In this document: in pieces, positions 2,227-23,563 of the stretch
Numbering within the stretch: position 1 is the first letter of the stretch
Layout of the letters: every line of letters starts with the position of its first letter
Assembly: GCF_032118995.1 (NCBI RefSeq)
Contig: NC_092651.1
Span: 23,172,349-23,236,348, forward strand
DNA: 64,000 nt
From: Asterias amurensis
Lineage: Eukaryota > Echinodermata > Asteroidea > Forcipulatida > Asteriidae
Direction: 5' to 3'
Notes under the pieces: model-generated
Databases searched by the model: none
Told to the model about the DNA's origin: nothing
The model's input: only the letters and a program-made list of their open reading frames with translations
Translations under genes and position numbers: made by a program

Positions 2227-2720
2227 CTCTTTTAATTGTCCCCGGATCTCCCTTAATTATTTATTGGCGGCCTTGTTGCTTTCGCCAGTGATGCTGCCAA
2301 TAGCTGCTGGCCCTTCTGGATCTTGGATGATTTCCTGTACGTGCTCTATGATCTTGTGAAGATAGTTAGGCCAGCCAACATAGGTGAAGTTGACCAGCAG
2401 AAGATGCCCCATTTGAACAGCTTCCTCCTTGTAGAGACATACATCTTCTTGGTTTGGATGGGTTGAGCGATATACTTTACGAAGAAAGAAAAAAAAATCA
2501 AAATTTCCTATAACTTCTGTTCCTATCCTCATCAGGAATCAAAGCAAGGAAATTGTCAACCTTGGTCTGATTAAACAGGTCACGAGCAAAGTTGCCTGGC
2601 ATCATTAACTTGGGCACTATTAACCCAATCATCTCCATTAAGTGATTGTTAAACTTCTTCTCTACATCATCAAACATGGGTTTGAGACCTCAATTGATGT
2701 CCCAGCTTTGGAAGAAGGTT
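2227..2720 (-). pseudogene. RAG1-like transposase fossil, C-terminal piece (copy A)
   Basis: Minus-strand frames match the C-terminal catalytic part of RAG1 and RAG1-like (ProtoRAG) transposases. From 2720 downward there is a segment like RAG1 '[20 protein letters not shown]' (here GNFARDLFNQTKVDNFLALI). It is followed by a segment containing YLHKIIEHVQEII, equivalent to the zinc-binding histidines of RAG1 (YFHKTLAHVPEII), and then GESNKAANK, equivalent to the region holding the third acidic catalytic residue (E962 in RAG1, in GNESGNK). The reading frame changes within the piece, so it is not a working gene. It is nearly identical to 3545-4030, so it is a local duplicate. No upstream catalytic part accompanies this copy. 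Confidence 0.75.
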
Positions 2721-3544: not shown

Positions 3545-4800
3545 TATGCACTCTTTTAAATGTCCCCAGAGCTCCCATAATAATTTATTGGCAGCCTTGT
3601 TGCTTTCGCCACTAATGCTCTTGGCCCTTCTGAATCTTGGATGATCTCCTGTACATGCTCTATGATCTTGTGAAGATAGTTAGGCCAGCCAACATAGGTG
3701 AAGTTGACCAGCAGAAGACGCCCCATTTTAACAGCTTCGTCCTTGTAAAGACATACATCTTCTTGGTTTGGATGGGTAGAGCGATATACTTTACGAAGAA
3801 AAAAAAAAAGTTCAAAATTTCCTTTAACTTCTGTTTCTATCCTCATCAGGAATCAAAGCAAGGAAATTGTCAACCTTGGTCTGGTTAAACAGGTCACGAG
3901 CAAAGTTGCCTGGCAACATTAACTTGGGCACTAACCCAATCGTCTCCATTTAGTGATTGTTAAACTTCTTCTCTACATCCTCAAACATGGGTTTGAGGTT
4001 TCGATTGGTGTCCCAGCTTTGGAAGCAGGCAATTCACATATTATGACTTTCTTGAAGAAATTACCCAAATTGATGTCCGCATGGGTTGCATCCAGGAGCT
4101 TGTGTTTGGGGTCAGACCTAAGTACTGGATAAGACTTTACACCCCTGGCATCTTCCGACAGTTCAGCAGCAGAAACATTATTAGGGTTGACCTGGAGGTG
4201 TTGGGCAGTGGCTTTTGTTTCTTCATAGCTTTGTGAAATGCAGAAGCTGCCCAACTTGCTCTTCGCCATCTCCTTCGTTGCGTGGCACAGAGTGCAAACA
4301 AACGTAGACCCACTCCCCTGCAAACCGCCGTCTGCTATATCCAACTTCTCGTCTATCATGCTGTTGAAGAACTTCAGTGAATGTCTCCTCCATACGGAAT
4401 CAACATTCACTCAAAGCTCTCTTCCTCGGAGCACCTCCCGATCATGCTCCATACCTTCGAGCAGAACAACAGCCGACGATCTATTGTTCTGATCCCCTAT
4501 TGCCTAAATGAGGGGCCGAGTGATGAACGTGGATTCAGGTGCATCGGGCTCATACAACATTACTCTCTACCCATCCTTCTCCACCTCGCACTTGATGATC
4601 GCAAAGGCTGCCCAGAAGGCCTTGTCTGGCAATAGAGGATCCCTCGCTGTCTTGATAATGGAAACAACTCCCATTCCATGTGCCCTGTCCTTCACAGTTG
4701 TGAGGATACAGTGATCTTCTTTAGGGTTCAGTCCTGCCTTGTTCATGCACTCAATATTAAGTACACTGGGCTTGGCTGTACAGGATCCACAGGGTAATGG
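3545..4800 (-). pseudogene. RAG1-like (ProtoRAG-type) transposase fossil, catalytic core (copy B)
   Basis: Read on the minus strand from 4800 downward, the pieces follow the order of the RAG1 core. First comes a segment like the RAG1 stretch VVKESCDGMGDVSEKHG (here TTVKDRAHGMGVVS...LLPDKAFWAAFAIIK). Next is an acidic motif AIGDQNN at the place of RAG1 LADESDH (first catalytic Asp). GSGSTFVCTLCHATKE follows, equivalent to SGSVYICTLCDATR with its CxxC zinc ligands. LLDATHADINLGNFFKK is equivalent to DALHCDIGNAAEFYK (second catalytic Asp). Then come GNFARDLFNQ, the HKIIEHVQEII histidines, and the SxGESNKAANK region (third acidic residue). RAG1-type proteins cut DNA next to recombination-signal-like ends. 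This copy has several stops and frame changes, so it is a fossil. No RAG2-like kelch partner or terminal repeats were found. Confidence 0.82.
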
Positions 4801-5100
4801 ATAGTATAGTCAACTCAATTCAATAATTTATTTGTCCATTAAAAGGATAAAAATGGAAAATTTACATGTCGAAACATTGAAAGTATAAGTTAAACTTTTT
4901 TTCGTTAGAGCGGGTGATACTCTTTGAAATACCATTCACTTAAAAAAATATATTTTTATTGTTTGAGGCCAAAAATCTGACATACACGTAGCATCTTTAA
5001 AGCCTCTTTCCAGTCAGTAGGAAATATACCAGAAACTAATGTTGGTAATTACAGGAAGCGAAACATCAAGGCACTATCTTGAAATGAATCTCTGATTTCA
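4801..5100. other. AT-rich spacer upstream of RAG1-like core
   Basis: Non-coding AT-rich sequence with no recognised repeat ends. It may be an intron-like spacer of the RAG1-like fossil, which is inference from position only. Confidence 0.25.
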
Positions 5101-5640: not shown

Positions 5641-6110
5641 CACAGATACAATTCACATTCTAAAAACAATCAATCAAGACAGAAACTTTAATCAGTAGTA
5701 AAAAAAGGGTTATGCAGCGAAATAACATTGACTCCAACAAGATCGTGAAACTCAGCTTGTTAAAAAAAACCTTTTCTTTTGTATCTAATCGATTCAAGAA
5801 CTAAATACAACCTGTACATGATAAATCTCCCCGATAAATGTACAAAATCACCCTGATTAAAAAATACTGACAGCACTGGTATATTGCAAAAGGTATGTTA
5901 TGTTGATTAGATGTAGTCAACTGAGTTTGCCTGAATTTATTGAACAAAGGTGGAAATCTTGGTTTGGCTCTCACTGTTCTTGTGAAAATCTTTCAGGTCT
6001 TTAAGTAAGCCATTAAAGTCAAGTTTATGTAGGCCTACAATCACAAAAGTATTTAATTTTTTAAAGTCCTGATTGTTGTCCAGAAATATATAATAATAAT
6101 AATATATATA

Positions 6111-6308
6111 GAAGAGTTTGCGGTAACACCATGTAATAACAATCTCTAAATGAGTTGGGGTGGTTCTGAAAAGAACCGTTGGGTTAACTCAACGGTTCTT
6201 TTCAGAACCACCCCAACTCATTTAGAGATTATTAACTCAACGGTTCTTTTCAGAACCACCCCAACTCATTTAGAGATTGTCATAACATGGTGTTACCGCA
6301 AACTCTTC
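6111..6308. mobile_element. Palindromic MITE with TA target site (mariner-like)
   Basis: The ends GAAGAGTTTGCGGTAACACC and its reverse complement face each other and are flanked by TA. Internally the motif ending in ...TCTGAAAAGAACCGTTGGG appears once forward and twice inverted, so part of one arm is tandemly duplicated. Related ends occur at 45307-45397 and 63566-63720. It is non-coding and presumably was mobilised by a Tc1/mariner transposase. Confidence 0.7.
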
Positions 6309-6829
6309 TATATCTTATCTCCACCATGCAAAGTTTCAAATCCTACTTAATTATAATATAATAATAATAAGACTTGTAATGCGCACATATCCACCCTGCT
6401 GGGTGTTCATATACATGTACATTTTATGCAGGCATGATATTCTTCCTACGTTGGTCTGATTTATAGATTTTGTTATTGCCCATTTTGGAGAGAAAAAAAA
6501 AATGAAACCATAGTGATTAAAAACCCTGACAAATCTGTTTATAAGCCAATCCCATTTATGACATGCAGGTCAAACATTGTCAGATTGTACTTAATAAAAG
6601 GTTCCTACTTTTAACGCCAAATATCATGTCCGTTATGTGAGTGAGTGACCATGCTATTTTGGCTAGATGTAGCCAACTGAGCGTGCCATAACTATTTGAT
6701 GGACACCAAATCTGCACCTGTACCTGTCATTGAGAATATTGTGGGAATTCTAATTTGGCTCCTACCCAACTGAGAATGCCATTCTGAATACATGAACCTT
6801 AGTTAGTAGAGGTAACCAATCCAGCGAGC

Positions 6830-8983: not shown

Positions 8984-10248
8984 CTTTTTGGACTGAGGGG
9001 GAATGTTGCCGTTTCTGATGGCGTCATTTAGGTTGGTTACAAACTCTGTTTCCATGTGGTTTAACATACGTATGGCAAATTTGTTTGGACTGAGGGGGAA
9101 TGTTGCCGTTTCTGATGGCGTCATTTAGGTTGGTTACAAACTCTGTTTCCATGTGGGTTAACGTACGTATGGCAAATTTGTTTGGACTGAGGGGGAATGT
9201 TGCCGTTTCTGATGGCGTCATTTAGGTTGGTTACAAACTCTGTTTCCATGTGGGTTAACGTACGTATGGCAAATTTGTTTGGACTGAGGGGGAATGTTGC
9301 CGTTTCTGATGGCGTCATTTAGGTTGGTTACAAACTCTGTTTCCATGTGGGTTAACATACGTATTGCAAATTTGTTTAGACTGAGGGGGAATGTTGCCGT
9401 TTCTGATGGCGTCATTTAGGTTGGTTACAAACTCTGTTTCCATGTGGGTTAACATACGTATGGCAAATTTGTTTGGACTGAGGGGGAATGTTGCCGTTTC
9501 TGATGGCGTCATTTAGGTTGGTTACAAACTCTGTTTCCATGTGGTTTAACATACGTATGGCAAATTTGTTTGGACTGAGGGGGAATGTTGCCGTTTCTGA
9601 TGGCGTCATTTAGGTTGGTTACAAACTCTGTTTCCATGTGGGTTAACGTACGTATGGCAAATTTGTTTGGACTGAGGGGGAATGTTGCCGTTTCTGATGG
9701 CGTCATTTAGGTTGGTTACAAACTCTGTTTCCATGTGGGTTAACATACGTATTGCAAATTTGTTTAGACTGAGGGGGAATGTTGCCGTTTCTGATGGCGT
9801 CATTTAGGTTGGTTACAAACTCTGTTTCCATGTGGTTTAACATACGTATTGCAAATTTGTTTGGACTGAGGGGGAATGTTGCCGTTTCTGATGGCGTCAT
9901 TTAGGTTGGTTACAAACTCTGTTTCCATGTGGGTTAACATACGTATGGCAAATTTGTTTGGACTGAGGGGGAATGTTGCCGTTTCTGATGGCGTCATTTA
10001 GGTTGGTTACAAACTCTGTTTCCATGTGGTTTAACATACGTATTGCAAATTTGTTTGGACTGAGGGGGAATGTTGCCGTTTCTGATGGCGTCATTTAGGT
10101 TGGTTACAAACTCTGTTTCCATGTGGGTTAACATACGTATTGCAAATTTGTTTGGACTGAGGGGGAATGTTGCCGTTTCTGATGGCGTCATTTAGGTTGG
10201 TTACAAACTCTGTTTCCATGTGGTTTAACATACGTATGGCAAATTTGT
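8984..10248 (-). repeat. 97-bp minisatellite, 13 units, derived from a coding exon
   Basis: Thirteen near-identical 97-bp units, with GATGGCGTCATTTAGG recurring every 97 bases from about 9018 to 10182. On the minus strand a unit reads METEFVTNLNDAIRNGNIPP plus flanks, the same segment that occurs once in the DUF3987-like fragment at 1-440 and that links 10259-10729 to 8895-8983. Because 97 is not a multiple of three, the frame shifts at every unit and frames close after two units. Variant bases (GTGGTTT/GTGGGTT, ATACG/GTACG, TATGGC/TATTGC) recur in blocks, which suggests multi-unit duplication steps. Confidence 0.93.
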
Positions 10249-17891: not shown

Positions 17892-18929
17892 TTACAAACA
17901 AACAGCGTCTTCTTTGTGTAAAGTGTAGTGTTTTTTTAGACTGACTTTCTTTTTAAAAGATTTCCCACATTCCTTGCAATTGAAGCGTTCATCATCTGTG
18001 TGGAACTTGTGGTGATCTTTCAAACTTGTCGCACGGGTGAACGCCGTGCCACAAACCTCACAAACAAATGGCTTTATCTTGGTGTGAACAGTTTGATGCT
18101 GTTTTAGATTGCCCAGTTGTATAAAGCTTCTGCCACACATTTCACAAATGAAAGGCTTTTCATTGGTGTGGACCTTGATATGTTTTTTTAAACTGCTAGT
18201 ATCGGCGAAGGTTTTACTGCAACTATTGCAATGGAATGGTTTTTCCTTGGTGTGTACCCTACGATGCCTTGTAAGAGTACTATTGATGGTGAATGCTTTA
18301 CCGCAAACGTCGCAAACAAATGGTTTCTCATTTGTGTGGACTACACAATGTTGTCTTAGGTTGCTCAGTTGCGTGAAACATTTCCCACACAAATCACAAA
18401 TAAATGGTCTCTCTTTGGTGTGAACTCTAACATGCATGACTAAACTGCTCCTGCGTGAAAAGGCCTTGCCGCAAATATCGCAGATCATAGGTTTACCCCC
18501 AAAGTGGTTCCGATGGTGTTGTCTAAGCCTGGTTTGGTTACGGAAGGATTCACTACACAAATCACACATGAACAATTTCTCCTCGGTGTGGATCTTCAGA
18601 TGCTTGGCGAGGCCTGATTTATCCGAGAAGCTCTTACTGCAAACGTAGCAAACCAATGTGTTTTCGTCGCTATGGACGGCGCGATGCTTTTTCAGATTAC
18701 CATTCTGTGAGAAAGACTTCCCGCAGGTCTCACAACTGTAGGGTTTCTCCAGAGTGTGTGTTCGTATATGCCTCTTTAAACCACAGCTGAATGAGAATCT
18801 CTTATAACACATGGTGCAACTATACGGCTTCTCGTTGGTGTGGACTCGCTGATGAAGTTTCAGACTACTGTTGCGTGTGAACGATCTGTTACAAATGTAA
18901 CACACATTGCGTCTGCTTCTACCTTCCAT
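17892..18929 (-). CDS. C2H2 zinc-finger protein, 12 fingers
   Basis: A 345-residue open frame made almost wholly of twelve tandem C2H2 zinc fingers. Each is C-x2-C-x3-F-x5-L-x2-H-x3-H, joined by seven-residue linkers of HTNEKP(F/Y) and HTKEKPF type. The first finger begins at about residue 10 (CYICNRSFTRNSSLKLHQRVH region) and the last ends about nine residues before the stop. All ligand Cys and His residues appear present in every finger. Such proteins bind DNA in the nucleus and usually act as transcription regulators. No KRAB, BTB or other partner domain is visible. The ATG at 18929 is preceded by a plausible splice acceptor (TTGATTCCAG just upstream), so an extra 5' exon with an N-terminal domain may exist. 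The orthologue cannot be named from fingers alone. Confidence 0.9.
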   Translation of the reverse strand: MEGRSRRNVCYICNRSFTRNSSLKLHQRVHTNEKPYSCTMCYKRFSFSCGLKRHIRTHTLEKPYSCETCGKSFSQNGNLKKHRAVHSDENTLVCYVCSKSFSDKSGLAKHLKIHTEEKLFMCDLCSESFRNQTRLRQHHRNHFGGKPMICDICGKAFSRRSSLVMHVRVHTKERPFICDLCGKCFTQLSNLRQHCVVHTNEKPFVCDVCGKAFTINSTLTRHRRVHTKEKPFHCNSCSKTFADTSSLKKHIKVHTNEKPFICEMCGRSFIQLGNLKQHQTVHTKIKPFVCEVCGTAFTRATSLKDHHKFHTDDERFNCKECGKSFKKKVSLKKHYTLHKEDAVCL

Positions 18930-19319
18930 TGGAAAAGTTGGCTGGAATCAAAAATAAAAGAGAATAATTATTTTGAAACAAAAGTCTTTCATTTAATTTA
19001 TTCTGGTTGTGAAGCCAAGGACTCAGCTACGCTGAGTATGTGTTTGTTTGTTTTATTTCCATTCATACAATCATAATGTACATACAGATCAATAATGAAT
19101 AATGGTCAATACAAAATGTAGATACAGTTACAGACTGTACGGTATGAATGGGGGTGACATCCAGAGAAGGACTGGCCTTCTGTAACGGAGCACCTGAGAC
19201 TGCGGTCAAATAAATCAATTTTGAAAGCAATGAGATCCCAGGTAGAGTACCCACCCAAATAAAGAGATGGTGTGGTTAACTTAAAGTATGTGGAAACTTG
19301 TCTTGTACTGTACGTCCAA

Positions 19320-19568: not shown

Positions 19569-20819
19569 TGCCAGTTACTGCTTCTATCTACTAGCTGTTT
19601 TTATATATTATAGGCACATTGAATCATTGTCACTTGTTGTGGGAATGACAAGGAGGGCCTTTCTTTAATAAAACGAGACCACATGTACTTGCAAAGGTAA
19701 ACTATCACAACAACAGACGATAAAATGTCACACAACTTACAGTTTGTGATCTCAAACTCAAATAGGCCATGATTTATTAGGCCTACTGAATTTTGTTCAC
19801 GATTATATCCTCTGCTTACCAGTTTTCACGCTATTATGCCTTTTTCTTTGAATTGAGAAAAAAATAATGATGCCATATATCAACCAATGCCCTAATTATC
19901 TTCATTTGTTAATATTAAGTATGCAAAAATGTATTAAAACTTATAATAGTATTGATACGAAGGTTACAAAATAAAAATCTCCAAAAATATTAGAAAATTA
20001 TATAAGGCACATGGCTTCTTTAAGCCTCTGTATTTTTTTTCAAGAATGCTCAGCAAAACATTCAGTCACATGATTTTGATCATCATGAATTGTGATTGAA
20101 ATAGCGTTTGATGAAACTTTTTTCAGTGCGCAAATATTGTTTTATTGCCTCAACATTATGACATATTTTTGTTCCTTGTAGAAACGCCTAAAGTACCAAA
20201 CTTTTTGCATTTACAAGTGCAAATGACCAGTGGAGCCTTACGTGTTTCTAAGTTTTGGTCAAGGGAGAGCAGACTCTTTGCTTGGCAAATAAAACCACAA
20301 ATTTTTATCTAGGGACTGTTTACATCACACACAGAGAGGTAAAAGATTTGCCACGATTTTAGGGACACCTCGAAAACAGGACCTCCTACGATACAATGTT
20401 GGTAGTAAACAGTGGAGATATATAACAGAACAGACGTATGAAGCTAAACCACGAACTACAACCATGCACGTTCTATGGTAACTGCCGCTGGTTCCCTGTT
20501 TCGCATTTGGTTTATGAACAATGTGTGTGCTGTTGGAACCAGTGCTTGCTTAGTCTTTTGTCCGTGTCGTTTCCTCTTCATCAGTCAAGATGAGAATCAT
20601 GAATATTTGTTACCTATACTAATTTATTCCGACGACCCGTGGCGTTTTCTCTTCAAGGCGGCTGCGGACGTAAAGAGCAGAGGGGGGGGGGGGGGAGAGA
20701 GAAGATTGCTAAAAACATCACCAAGATAATGGATTGGCATCAGTTTAGTTTCACTCAGTCAGCAAATTATCGAGGTATGTTATTATTATAAAATTATGGT
20801 AAGTTTCCAACTCAAATTA

Positions 20820-21347
20820 ACTACACCACCGTACGCAACTCAATGGGAAACTACACAACCATACACAAGTTAATGGGAAACTACACAACCATACACAAGT
20901 CATAGGGAAACTACACAACCATACACAAGTCAGTATAGGAAACTTTACAACCATACACAAGTCAATGGAAAACTACACAACCATACATAACTCAATGGGA
21001 AACTACACAACCGTACACAAGTCAATGGGAAACTACACAACCATACACAAGTCAATAGGAAACTACACAACCATACACAAGTCAATGGGAAACTACACAA
21101 CCATACACAAGTCAATGGGAAACTACACAACCATACACAAGTCAATGGGACACTTCACAACCATACACATGTCAATGGGAAACTACACAACCATACACAA
21201 GTCAATGGGACACTTCACAACCCAACCATACACAAGTCACTAGGAAACTACACAACCATACACAATGCAATGGGAAACTACACAACCATACACAAGTCAA
21301 TGGGAAACTACACAACCATACACAAGTCAATGGGAAACTACACAACC
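20820..21347. repeat. 30-bp minisatellite, first block (about 17 units)
   Basis: Units of the form ACACAAGTCAATGGGAAACT plus ACACAACCAT, with variants such as GGGACACTTC and ACACAATGCA. The left edge units are the most degenerate. Confidence 0.93.
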
Positions 21348-21885
21348 AGAGATGCCAAGTCCAGAGGCCAGCAATGCGCGAGTTTTTTCAAAGCTCCCCC
21401 CCCCCCCCCCCCGAAAAAAAAATTTGTCAGTTTTAGAAAGCCTTTCGAAATTGCCGCTCAACTTTTTTTCTTTTTTTTTTTATAAAAAAAAAAAACCGGA
21501 AATTTAATTGTGGACAAAGAAGTGTTCCAAAATGCATCAAAAACCTCTTCAGAATAATTAAAACTCACATGAGGTACACAGAAGATCGTTGATGGTTAAT
21601 GTGGAGGTACAATTGTGTCAGATTATTTCCTTCCAAACTAAAACAAAATCGACTAAAAATGTTCAAAATCCTCCGCTCACTTCTTCTGCCTGTTGTATCT
21701 TCGCTAGTGTAGCGCATTTAACAAATTTGCTAAACGAATCGGGCAAAGGCGTGCCCAATCTGCAAATTTGCGCTCTTTTTCCCGGTCTGGCCCCAATGCG
21801 TGAGAAAATGGTTGCTGTGCGTGTGAGCGTGAGACAGAGCCCAAATGCATGAGTCTCACGCCTAATGCGTGAGACTTGGTAGGTA
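21348..21885. mobile_element. hAT-like insertion splitting the minisatellite
   Basis: About 536 bp of unrelated sequence lies between two blocks of the same 30-bp array. It starts (C)AGAGATGCCAAGTC and ends with a loosely complementary GACTTGGTAGGTATG, and it contains poly-C and poly-A runs and a GTCTCACGC-type palindrome near 21850. The CAGNG-TGCCAA-type end suggests a non-autonomous hAT element. An 8-bp duplication cannot be fixed inside a tandem array. Confidence 0.5.
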
Positions 21886-23563
21886 TGCCATACACAAGTC
21901 AACGGGAAACTACACAACCATCACAAGTCAACGGGAAACTACACAACCATACACAAGTCAATGGGACACTTCACAACCATACACAAGTCAATGGGACACT
22001 TCACAACCATACACAAGTCAACGGGAAACTACACAACCATCACAAGTCAATGGGAAACTACACAACCATACACAAGTCAATGGGACACTTCACAACCATA
22101 CACAAGTCAATGGGAAACTACACAACCATACACAAGTCAATGGGAAACTACACAACCATACACAATGCAATGGGAAACTACACAACCATACACAAGTCAA
22201 TGGGAAACTACACAACCATACACAAGTCAATGGGAAACTACACAACCATACACAAGTCAATGGGACACTTCACAACCATACACATGTCAATGGGAAACTA
22301 CACAACCATACACAAGTCAATAGGAAACTACACAACCATACACAATGCAATGGGAAACTACACAACCATACACATGTCAATGGGAAACTACACAACCATA
22401 CACAAGTCAATAGGAAACTACACAACCATACACAAGTCAATGGGACACTTCACAACCATACACATGTCAATGGGAAACTACACAACCATCACAAGTCAAT
22501 GGGAAACTACACAACCATACACAAGTCAATGGGAAACTACACAACCATACACAAGTCAATGGGACACTTCACAACCATACACAAGTCAATGGGAAACTAC
22601 ACAACCATACACAAGTCAATGGGAAACTACACAACCATACACAATGCAATGGGAAACTACACAACCATACACAAGTCAATGGGAAACTACACAACCATAC
22701 ACAAGTCAATGGGAAACTACACAACCATACACATGTCAATGGGAAACTACACAACCATACACAATGCAATGGGAAACTACACAACCATACACAATGCAAT
22801 GGGAAACTACACAACCATACACAAGTCAATGGGAAACTACACAACCATACACAAGTCAACGGGAAACTACACAACCATACACAAGTCAATGGGAAACTAC
22901 ACAACCATCCACAAGTCAACGGGAAACTACACAACCATACACAAGTCAACGGGAAACTACACAACCATACACAAGTCAATGGGAAACTACACAACCATAC
23001 ACAAGTCAATGGGAAACTACACAACCATACACAAGTCAATGGGAAACTACACAACCATACACAAGTCAATGGGAAACTACACAACCATACACAAGTCAAT
23101 GGGAAACTACACAACCATACACAAGTCAACGGGAAACTACACAACCATCACAAGTCAATGGGAAACTACACAACCATACACAAGTCAATGGGACACTTCA
23201 CAACCATACACAAGTCAATGGGAAACTACACAACCATACACAAGTCAATGGGAAACTACACAACCATACACAATGCAATGGGAAACTACACAACCATCCA
23301 CAAGTCAACGGGAAACTACACAACCATACACAAGTCAATGGGAAACTACACAACCATACACAAGTCAATGGGACACTACACAACCATACACAAGTCAATG
23401 GGAAACTACACAACCATACACAAGTCAATGGGAAACTACACAACCATACACAAGTCAATGGAAAACTACACAACCAAACACAAGTCAATGGGAAACTACA
23501 CAACCATACACAAGTCAATGGGAAACTACACAACCATACACAATGCAATGGGACTCGAACTAC
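21886..23563. repeat. 30-bp minisatellite, second block (about 56 units)
   Basis: The same unit as the first block. Variant units (GGGACACTTC, ACACAATGC, ACACATGTC, and 29-bp units lacking TA in CCATCACAAG) recur in ordered runs. The unit has no stop in any plus frame, so long open frames arise automatically. Confidence 0.95.

Follow-up and report, generated by a model that had tools for sequence, protein, structure and literature searches.

A 64,000-nucleotide stretch of the Asterias amurensis genome (contig NC_092651.1, positions 23,172,349 to 23,236,348; hereafter the window) carries on its minus strand a broken sequence resembling the core of RAG1, which raises the question of what this sequence descends from and whether it still serves any function. 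An initial annotation placed a RAG1-like transposase fossil there, at 3545-4800. Our analysis indicates that the fragment is very probably a dead RAG1L piece derived from a cut-and-paste transposon that pairs RAG1L with RAG2L and belongs to the ProtoRAG/TransibSU kind (probably RAGL_B-like).

A whole-genome profile search with PF12940 (RAG1), spanning 491,506,623 bases in 23 contigs with 13 candidates scored, revealed four matches: two on contig C2, in intact frames (E 2.9e-71 and 1.0e-70), and two broken sequences in the window. The larger of these, copy 1, matched the profile at 3694-4755 on the minus strand (E 4.9e-22, 7 stops inside), in agreement with the annotated family and strand, and showed 88.6% identity by blastn to an intact C2 RAG1L exon (L005:3796-5004) across 1209 columns (1.2 kb). 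The fossil lies within the annotated interval, with the bounds of the DNA match set more narrowly at 3558-4753 (-). It covers approximately residues 153-555 within the 609-residue open frame of the RAG1L core exon, representing an internal part of that exon with both ends gone. A second, shorter copy at 2234-2711 (-), absent from the initial annotation, duplicates the 3′ part of copy 1 and shares its truncation point, exhibiting 86% identity to the intact exon (L005:3796-4272) and 90.4% to copy 1 (blastn); its profile match spans 2242-2496 (-) (E 1.8e-4, 1 stop inside).

With the intact RAG1L core as tblastn query, the window returned 529 bits at 4752-3613, against a maximum of 28.1 bits for shuffled queries (n = 100). 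Judged by sequence, the RAG1L fossil is real, and its signal stands far above chance. In copy 1, the longest piece that stays open (3976-4410, minus strand) spans 145 aa. It encompasses the D708-equivalent, the zinc cysteines and the H795-equivalent region, and was the only one of four open pieces to pass the RAG1 cut-off when each was scanned singly against Pfam (E 3.6e-13). The pieces at 3559-3852 (E 0.00033) and 2501-2689 (E 0.0078) fell below that cut-off, and the piece at 4570-4809 scanned alone gave no Pfam match; given these weak scans, the smaller pieces by themselves are no proof of RAG1 homology. Comparison of the 145-aa piece with PDB identified the amphioxus RAG1L (BbRAG1L, 6b40) as the best match (E 1.4e-27), followed by RAG1 chains at 5.6e-12 or weaker, and all 16 matches at E up to 1 were RAG1L or RAG1.

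The catalytic acids of RAG1 are D600, D708 and E962. We located their equivalents by codon alignment to the intact copy and by mouse numbering from aligned RAG1 chains, namely the full-length chain 6oem, which we take to be mouse RAG1 and in which the match begins at 465, and 5zdz, whose PDB record names mouse RAG1; codon coordinates were taken by hand from the window sequence and the fossil/intact alignment. Both intact C2 copies possess D, D and E at these positions. In copy 1, the D600-equivalent codon (4678-4680, minus strand) now specifies His, the D708-equivalent (4351-4353, minus strand) retains Asp within IDEK, and the E962-equivalent (3596-3598, minus strand; the K of GESNK) now specifies Lys, as does its counterpart in copy 2 (2272-2274, minus strand). 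Two of the three catalytic acids are therefore gone.

The zinc ligands are better preserved, as had been annotated: the CTLC cysteines (4285-4296, minus strand; the first equivalent to mouse C727) are kept in copy 1, copy 2 stopping short of them, and the HKIIEH histidines (3655-3672, minus strand; the first equivalent to mouse H937) are kept in both copies. The annotated order of RAG1 motifs also held. Its catalytic reading fared less well: the regions of the first and third acids are present but the acids themselves are lost, and HADI (4072-4083, minus strand), which is kept and had been proposed to contain the second catalytic Asp, aligns with mouse H795-C-D797, the D708-equivalent being instead the D of IDEK. 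The "recognisable catalytic core" is accordingly a genuine RAG1 core match that lacks two of its three catalytic acids. This loss identifies the fossil as a dead descendant and no working RAG1L member, and as a transposase the fragment does nothing.

Both copies exhibit further lesions: four in-register stops, three 1-base deletions and one 10-base deletion in copy 1, and three in-register stops, two 1-base deletions and one 3-base insertion in copy 2. Two of the 1-base deletions occupy the same alignment columns in both. This correspondence, together with the common truncation point and the common E962 change, indicates that one dead fragment was duplicated locally, after its decay had begun. 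By these lesions, both window copies are dead.

We partitioned 465 columns of the comparison with the intact sequence, of which 389 were unchanged, 43 differed in common, 15 were private to copy 1, 16 were private to copy 2 and 2 differed in both. Codon by codon, the common changes, a set that includes those arisen on the intact lineage, comprised 27 synonymous and 15 nonsynonymous differences, whereas the private changes, counted without the 2 positions at which all three sequences differ, comprised 11 and 20, respectively (Fisher p 0.019). At kappa 2, neutral change would be nonsynonymous in a proportion of 0.76. The common changes contain far too few nonsynonymous differences for this (p 4e-8), while the private changes lie closer to neutrality (p 0.044 with kappa 1, 0.10 with kappa 2 and 0.20 with kappa 4). 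Measured against the intact copy, synonymous divergence is 0.30 in copy 1 and 0.43 in copy 2; the fossil-intact dN/dS is 0.23 over 394 codons. Constrained common changes and much less constrained private ones suggest that the lineage was functional long before the window copy died.

Comparison of the two intact C2 loci with each other revealed the boundaries of two complete-looking elements. Copy A (C2:20531704-20544572; 12,869 bp) is flanked on both sides by the 5-bp duplication CTAGG, and copy B (C2:9150162-9162019; 11,858 bp) by CGCGA, so that a 5-bp target duplication is present in both of the two copies. The element ends are CACAGCGAAAAATC and CACAGCGAAATATC; they are inverted and begin with CAC, reading CACAGCGAAA... 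at either end of both copies, and their first 20 bases agree at 17 positions by hand count. Similarity between A and B runs from the CACAGCG... start to the ...CGCTGTG end, and the sequences directly outside are unlike. A search for inverted repeats inside L005 (the 25 longest of 43 pairs) did not show these ends, which lie outside that stretch. Farther out from the two copies, scattered matches of 158-399 columns represent other repeats.

Over 11,784 aligned positions the two copies show 61 mismatches (~0.5%, gaps not counted). Copy A carries an extra insert of 1,027 bases (~C2:20542630-20543655) upstream of RAG1L exon 1, and 16 smaller gaps separate the pair. Their RAG1L cores are 99% identical, and the core exons have 8 base differences; 5 of these change the protein, and the intact pair thus gives no sign of ongoing constraint. 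Copy A is located in a G-rich repeat array. For copy B, the unoccupied target reconstructed as a 35-base joint of its flanks matched 188 sites (102 + 86) when as many as 3 mismatches were allowed. No match among those listed was exact, and the reversed control gave 0. Copy B is therefore embedded in a dispersed repeat. A search with the end pattern returned 10 matches, of which the 4 without mismatch all mark termini of the C2 pair; the remaining 6, with 2 mismatches each, equal the control count (6) and are taken as chance, and we therefore claim no short non-autonomous copies. Collectively, intact frames, matching ends and target duplications make the C2 copies look like recently mobile ProtoRAG/TransibSU-type transposons.

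Predicted gene models, with GT/AG splice sites placed by hand, give each C2 copy a convergent RAG1L and RAG2L pair of three exons each. The predicted RAG1L proteins measure 860 and 847 aa, and the predicted RAG2L 471 aa in both copies. The N-terminus of RAG1L matches RAG1 importin binding (E 3e-9), and its pre-core region aligns to BbRAG1L across a predicted exon junction (E 8.6e-17). The intact core scored 482.8 bits against BbRAG1L and at most 246.8 against RAG1 chains. Set beside BbRAG1L (RAGL_B) and mouse RAG1, RAG1L is nearer to the former in both score and identity; RAGL_A elements are reportedly the subject of "missing link" work.

RAG2L was recognised by an open frame adjoining RAG1L. 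Its model combines kelch repeats with a PHD finger, and its best PDB match is BbRAG2L (E 1.2e-23). Vertebrate RAG2 has a long acidic hinge; because the kelch match of RAG2L ends at 403 and the PHD starts at 435 of 471 residues (Pfam), the model leaves little room for a hinge of this type. The vertebrate RAG2 profile (PF03089) gave no match anywhere in the genome, a search that accordingly contained no positive control, and a mouse RAG2 query is described as missing amphioxus RAG2L too (PMC7204232, available portion).

These features place the C2 elements and the fossil within a known kind, since RAG1L/RAG2L transposons have been described from the bat star, as has a RAG1L transcript from Asterias forbesi. 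As far as the available portions of the cited texts describe them, amphioxus ProtoRAG elements share the tail-to-tail RAG1L/RAG2L arrangement, the inverted ends beginning CAC and the 5-bp duplications (PMC7204232, PMC8289069), and protostome RAGL duplications are likewise 5 bp, as in most ProtoRAG ones (PMC7204232). Further likeness lies in the core, which is 44% identical to BbRAG1L (PDB 6b40; RAGL_B family), in the Met that both intact copies carry at the site of mouse residue 848, and in a CCHC-like tail at the RAG1L C-terminus. The C2 RAG2L has a PHD finger, in contrast to BbRAG2L, described without one in the same portions (PMC7204232, PMC8289069). Jawed-vertebrate RAG1 shares with C2 RAG1L the core match and the D, D and E at the D600, D708 and E962 positions, but is only 33% identical to it, and the C2 pair is bounded like a transposon.

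Within echinoderms, we likened the C2 elements by published description to the bat star TransibSU-1_PM and the Asterias forbesi AFRAG1L transcript, the relevant passages of PMC4411706 giving starfish RAG1L and RAG2L three exons each, as on C2, together with 13-bp inverted ends and, in a single case, 5-bp duplications. The bat star copies of 2015 are described there as incomplete or pieced from contigs, whereas the two on C2 look complete and lie in long contigs. Sea urchin RAG1L/RAG2L loci also form a convergent pair, with a PHD finger in purple sea urchin RAG2L (PMC9885083, in part); the purple sea urchin locus, however, is reported without inverted ends in the consulted portion of PMC4411706, whereas inverted ends and duplications flank the C2 pair.

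At the fossil itself, neither element blastn of the window plus 10 kb upstream nor the end-pattern search identified inverted ends, a target duplication or remnants of RAG2L, and tblastn of the RAG2L exons against the window at E 1e-4 gave no match. The identification of a transposon copy there consequently rests on descent, and the fragment may have been carried to this site by means other than transposition. Whole-element blastn of the same interval yielded 15 rows, namely the two fossil fragments and 13 others: one at 21355-21776 (71%, 442 columns), where the matching part of the element is a dispersed repeat in its own right; 11 of 47-146 columns, all to a single stretch right after the RAG1L stop; and a last one of 29 columns.

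Several other features were observed elsewhere in the window. These comprise 13 tandem copies of a 97-bp unit, 98% alike, at 8987-10248; arrays of 30-bp units at 20819-21348 and 21888-23553, open in several frames on both strands; a palindrome-like inverted repeat at 6106-6313, with arm copies near 45.3 kb; and a 351-aa open frame at 17892-18947 (-) with many C2H2 zinc fingers by eye, probably an intact gene or exon.

Genome-wide, the RAG1L core exon occupies at least five places: the two intact frames, the two window copies, and a relic on contig C7 (C7:12896381-12898277). The latter retains exons 1 and 2 and the start of exon 3 at 78-87% DNA identity, with no stops within the spans of exons 1 and 2 and no blastn match for its introns. 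Scrambled, partly repeated RAG2L pieces lie at C4:16510547-16511318, with stops in two of four rows. The right end of the element was found in at least two places, its left part in at least 42 matches (40 of 857 candidates scored) and its mid part in at least 104 (38 of 320). Except for the C2 pair and three C7 rows, the left- and mid-part matches listed fall within short internal dispersed repeats of the element, and we do not take them as copies.

Where the fragment came from can be weighed against these observations. Descent from a Transib-type transposase without a RAG2 partner is extremely unlikely. Transib is a related family, and the RAG1L profile does reach 6pqn (recorded as a DNA-mediated transposase, which we take to be the Transib structure) at 42.9 bits, but RAG1L and RAG1 match far better. 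Their chains scored 725-1014 bits, values favoured by construction since BbRAG1L and mouse RAG1 are part of that profile, and the next matches after 6pqn were three talin chains, which at no more than 18.4 bits we attribute to chance; moreover, the 88.6%-identical intact copies carry RAG2L. With PF12940 significant as well, the RAG1-like affinity proposed in the initial annotation is borne out by the profile comparison it had called for. If the fossil were what is left of a host RAG1L gene that had been domesticated, in place of a transposon copy, this would account for the mostly protein-constrained divergence (dN/dS 0.23; 27 synonymous to 15 nonsynonymous common changes), and sea urchins keep immobilised RAG1L genes, as stated in the available part of PMC9885083. 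A constrained transposon lineage would leave the same signal, however, and with no RAG2L found in the window and mobile-looking family copies in the same genome we consider this origin very unlikely.

It is very unlikely that the fragment still serves the host, for instance as an exon or as a small-RNA source against the live element: persistence of 86-89% identity to the live copies and the open 145-aa frame would fit such a role, yet stops and frameshifts interrupt both copies and the private changes, 20 of 31 nonsynonymous, approach neutrality. Under the preferred reading of a dead RAG1L piece from a RAG1L-RAG2L transposon, a RAG1L-RAG2L complex would, by structure and published relatives, bind the inverted ends beginning CAC, excise the element and insert it with a 5-bp staggered joint. 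The RAG1L fragment would subsequently have lost its ends and its RAG2L partner and decayed, after which its 3′ part would have been duplicated ~1.3 kb away.

Earlier starfish evidence consisted of the incomplete bat star element and the transcript (PMC4411706, as available), starfish RAG elements being treated in that source and mentioned in the accessible part of PMC8289069. The open-access literature searched yielded no report of RAG1L/RAG2L in Asterias amurensis, and the accessible portion of the genome paper (PMC10625585) contains no word beginning RAG. The fossil alone is ordinary and adds little; it is valuable for having led to a pair of complete-looking RAG1L-RAG2L transposons in a starfish. 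We regard it as an even chance that A. amurensis harbors a PHD-bearing RAG1L-RAG2L transposon that is mobile now or was very recently, and whose lineage was protein-constrained over a synonymous divergence of ~0.3-0.4. A complete element with a PHD-bearing RAG2L would allow the role of the PHD finger in a transposon predating V(D)J recombination to be tested. If such mobility is real, RAG transposition of the pre-V(D)J type could be studied in a living and accessible starfish, and the window fossil would be one of the family's relics.
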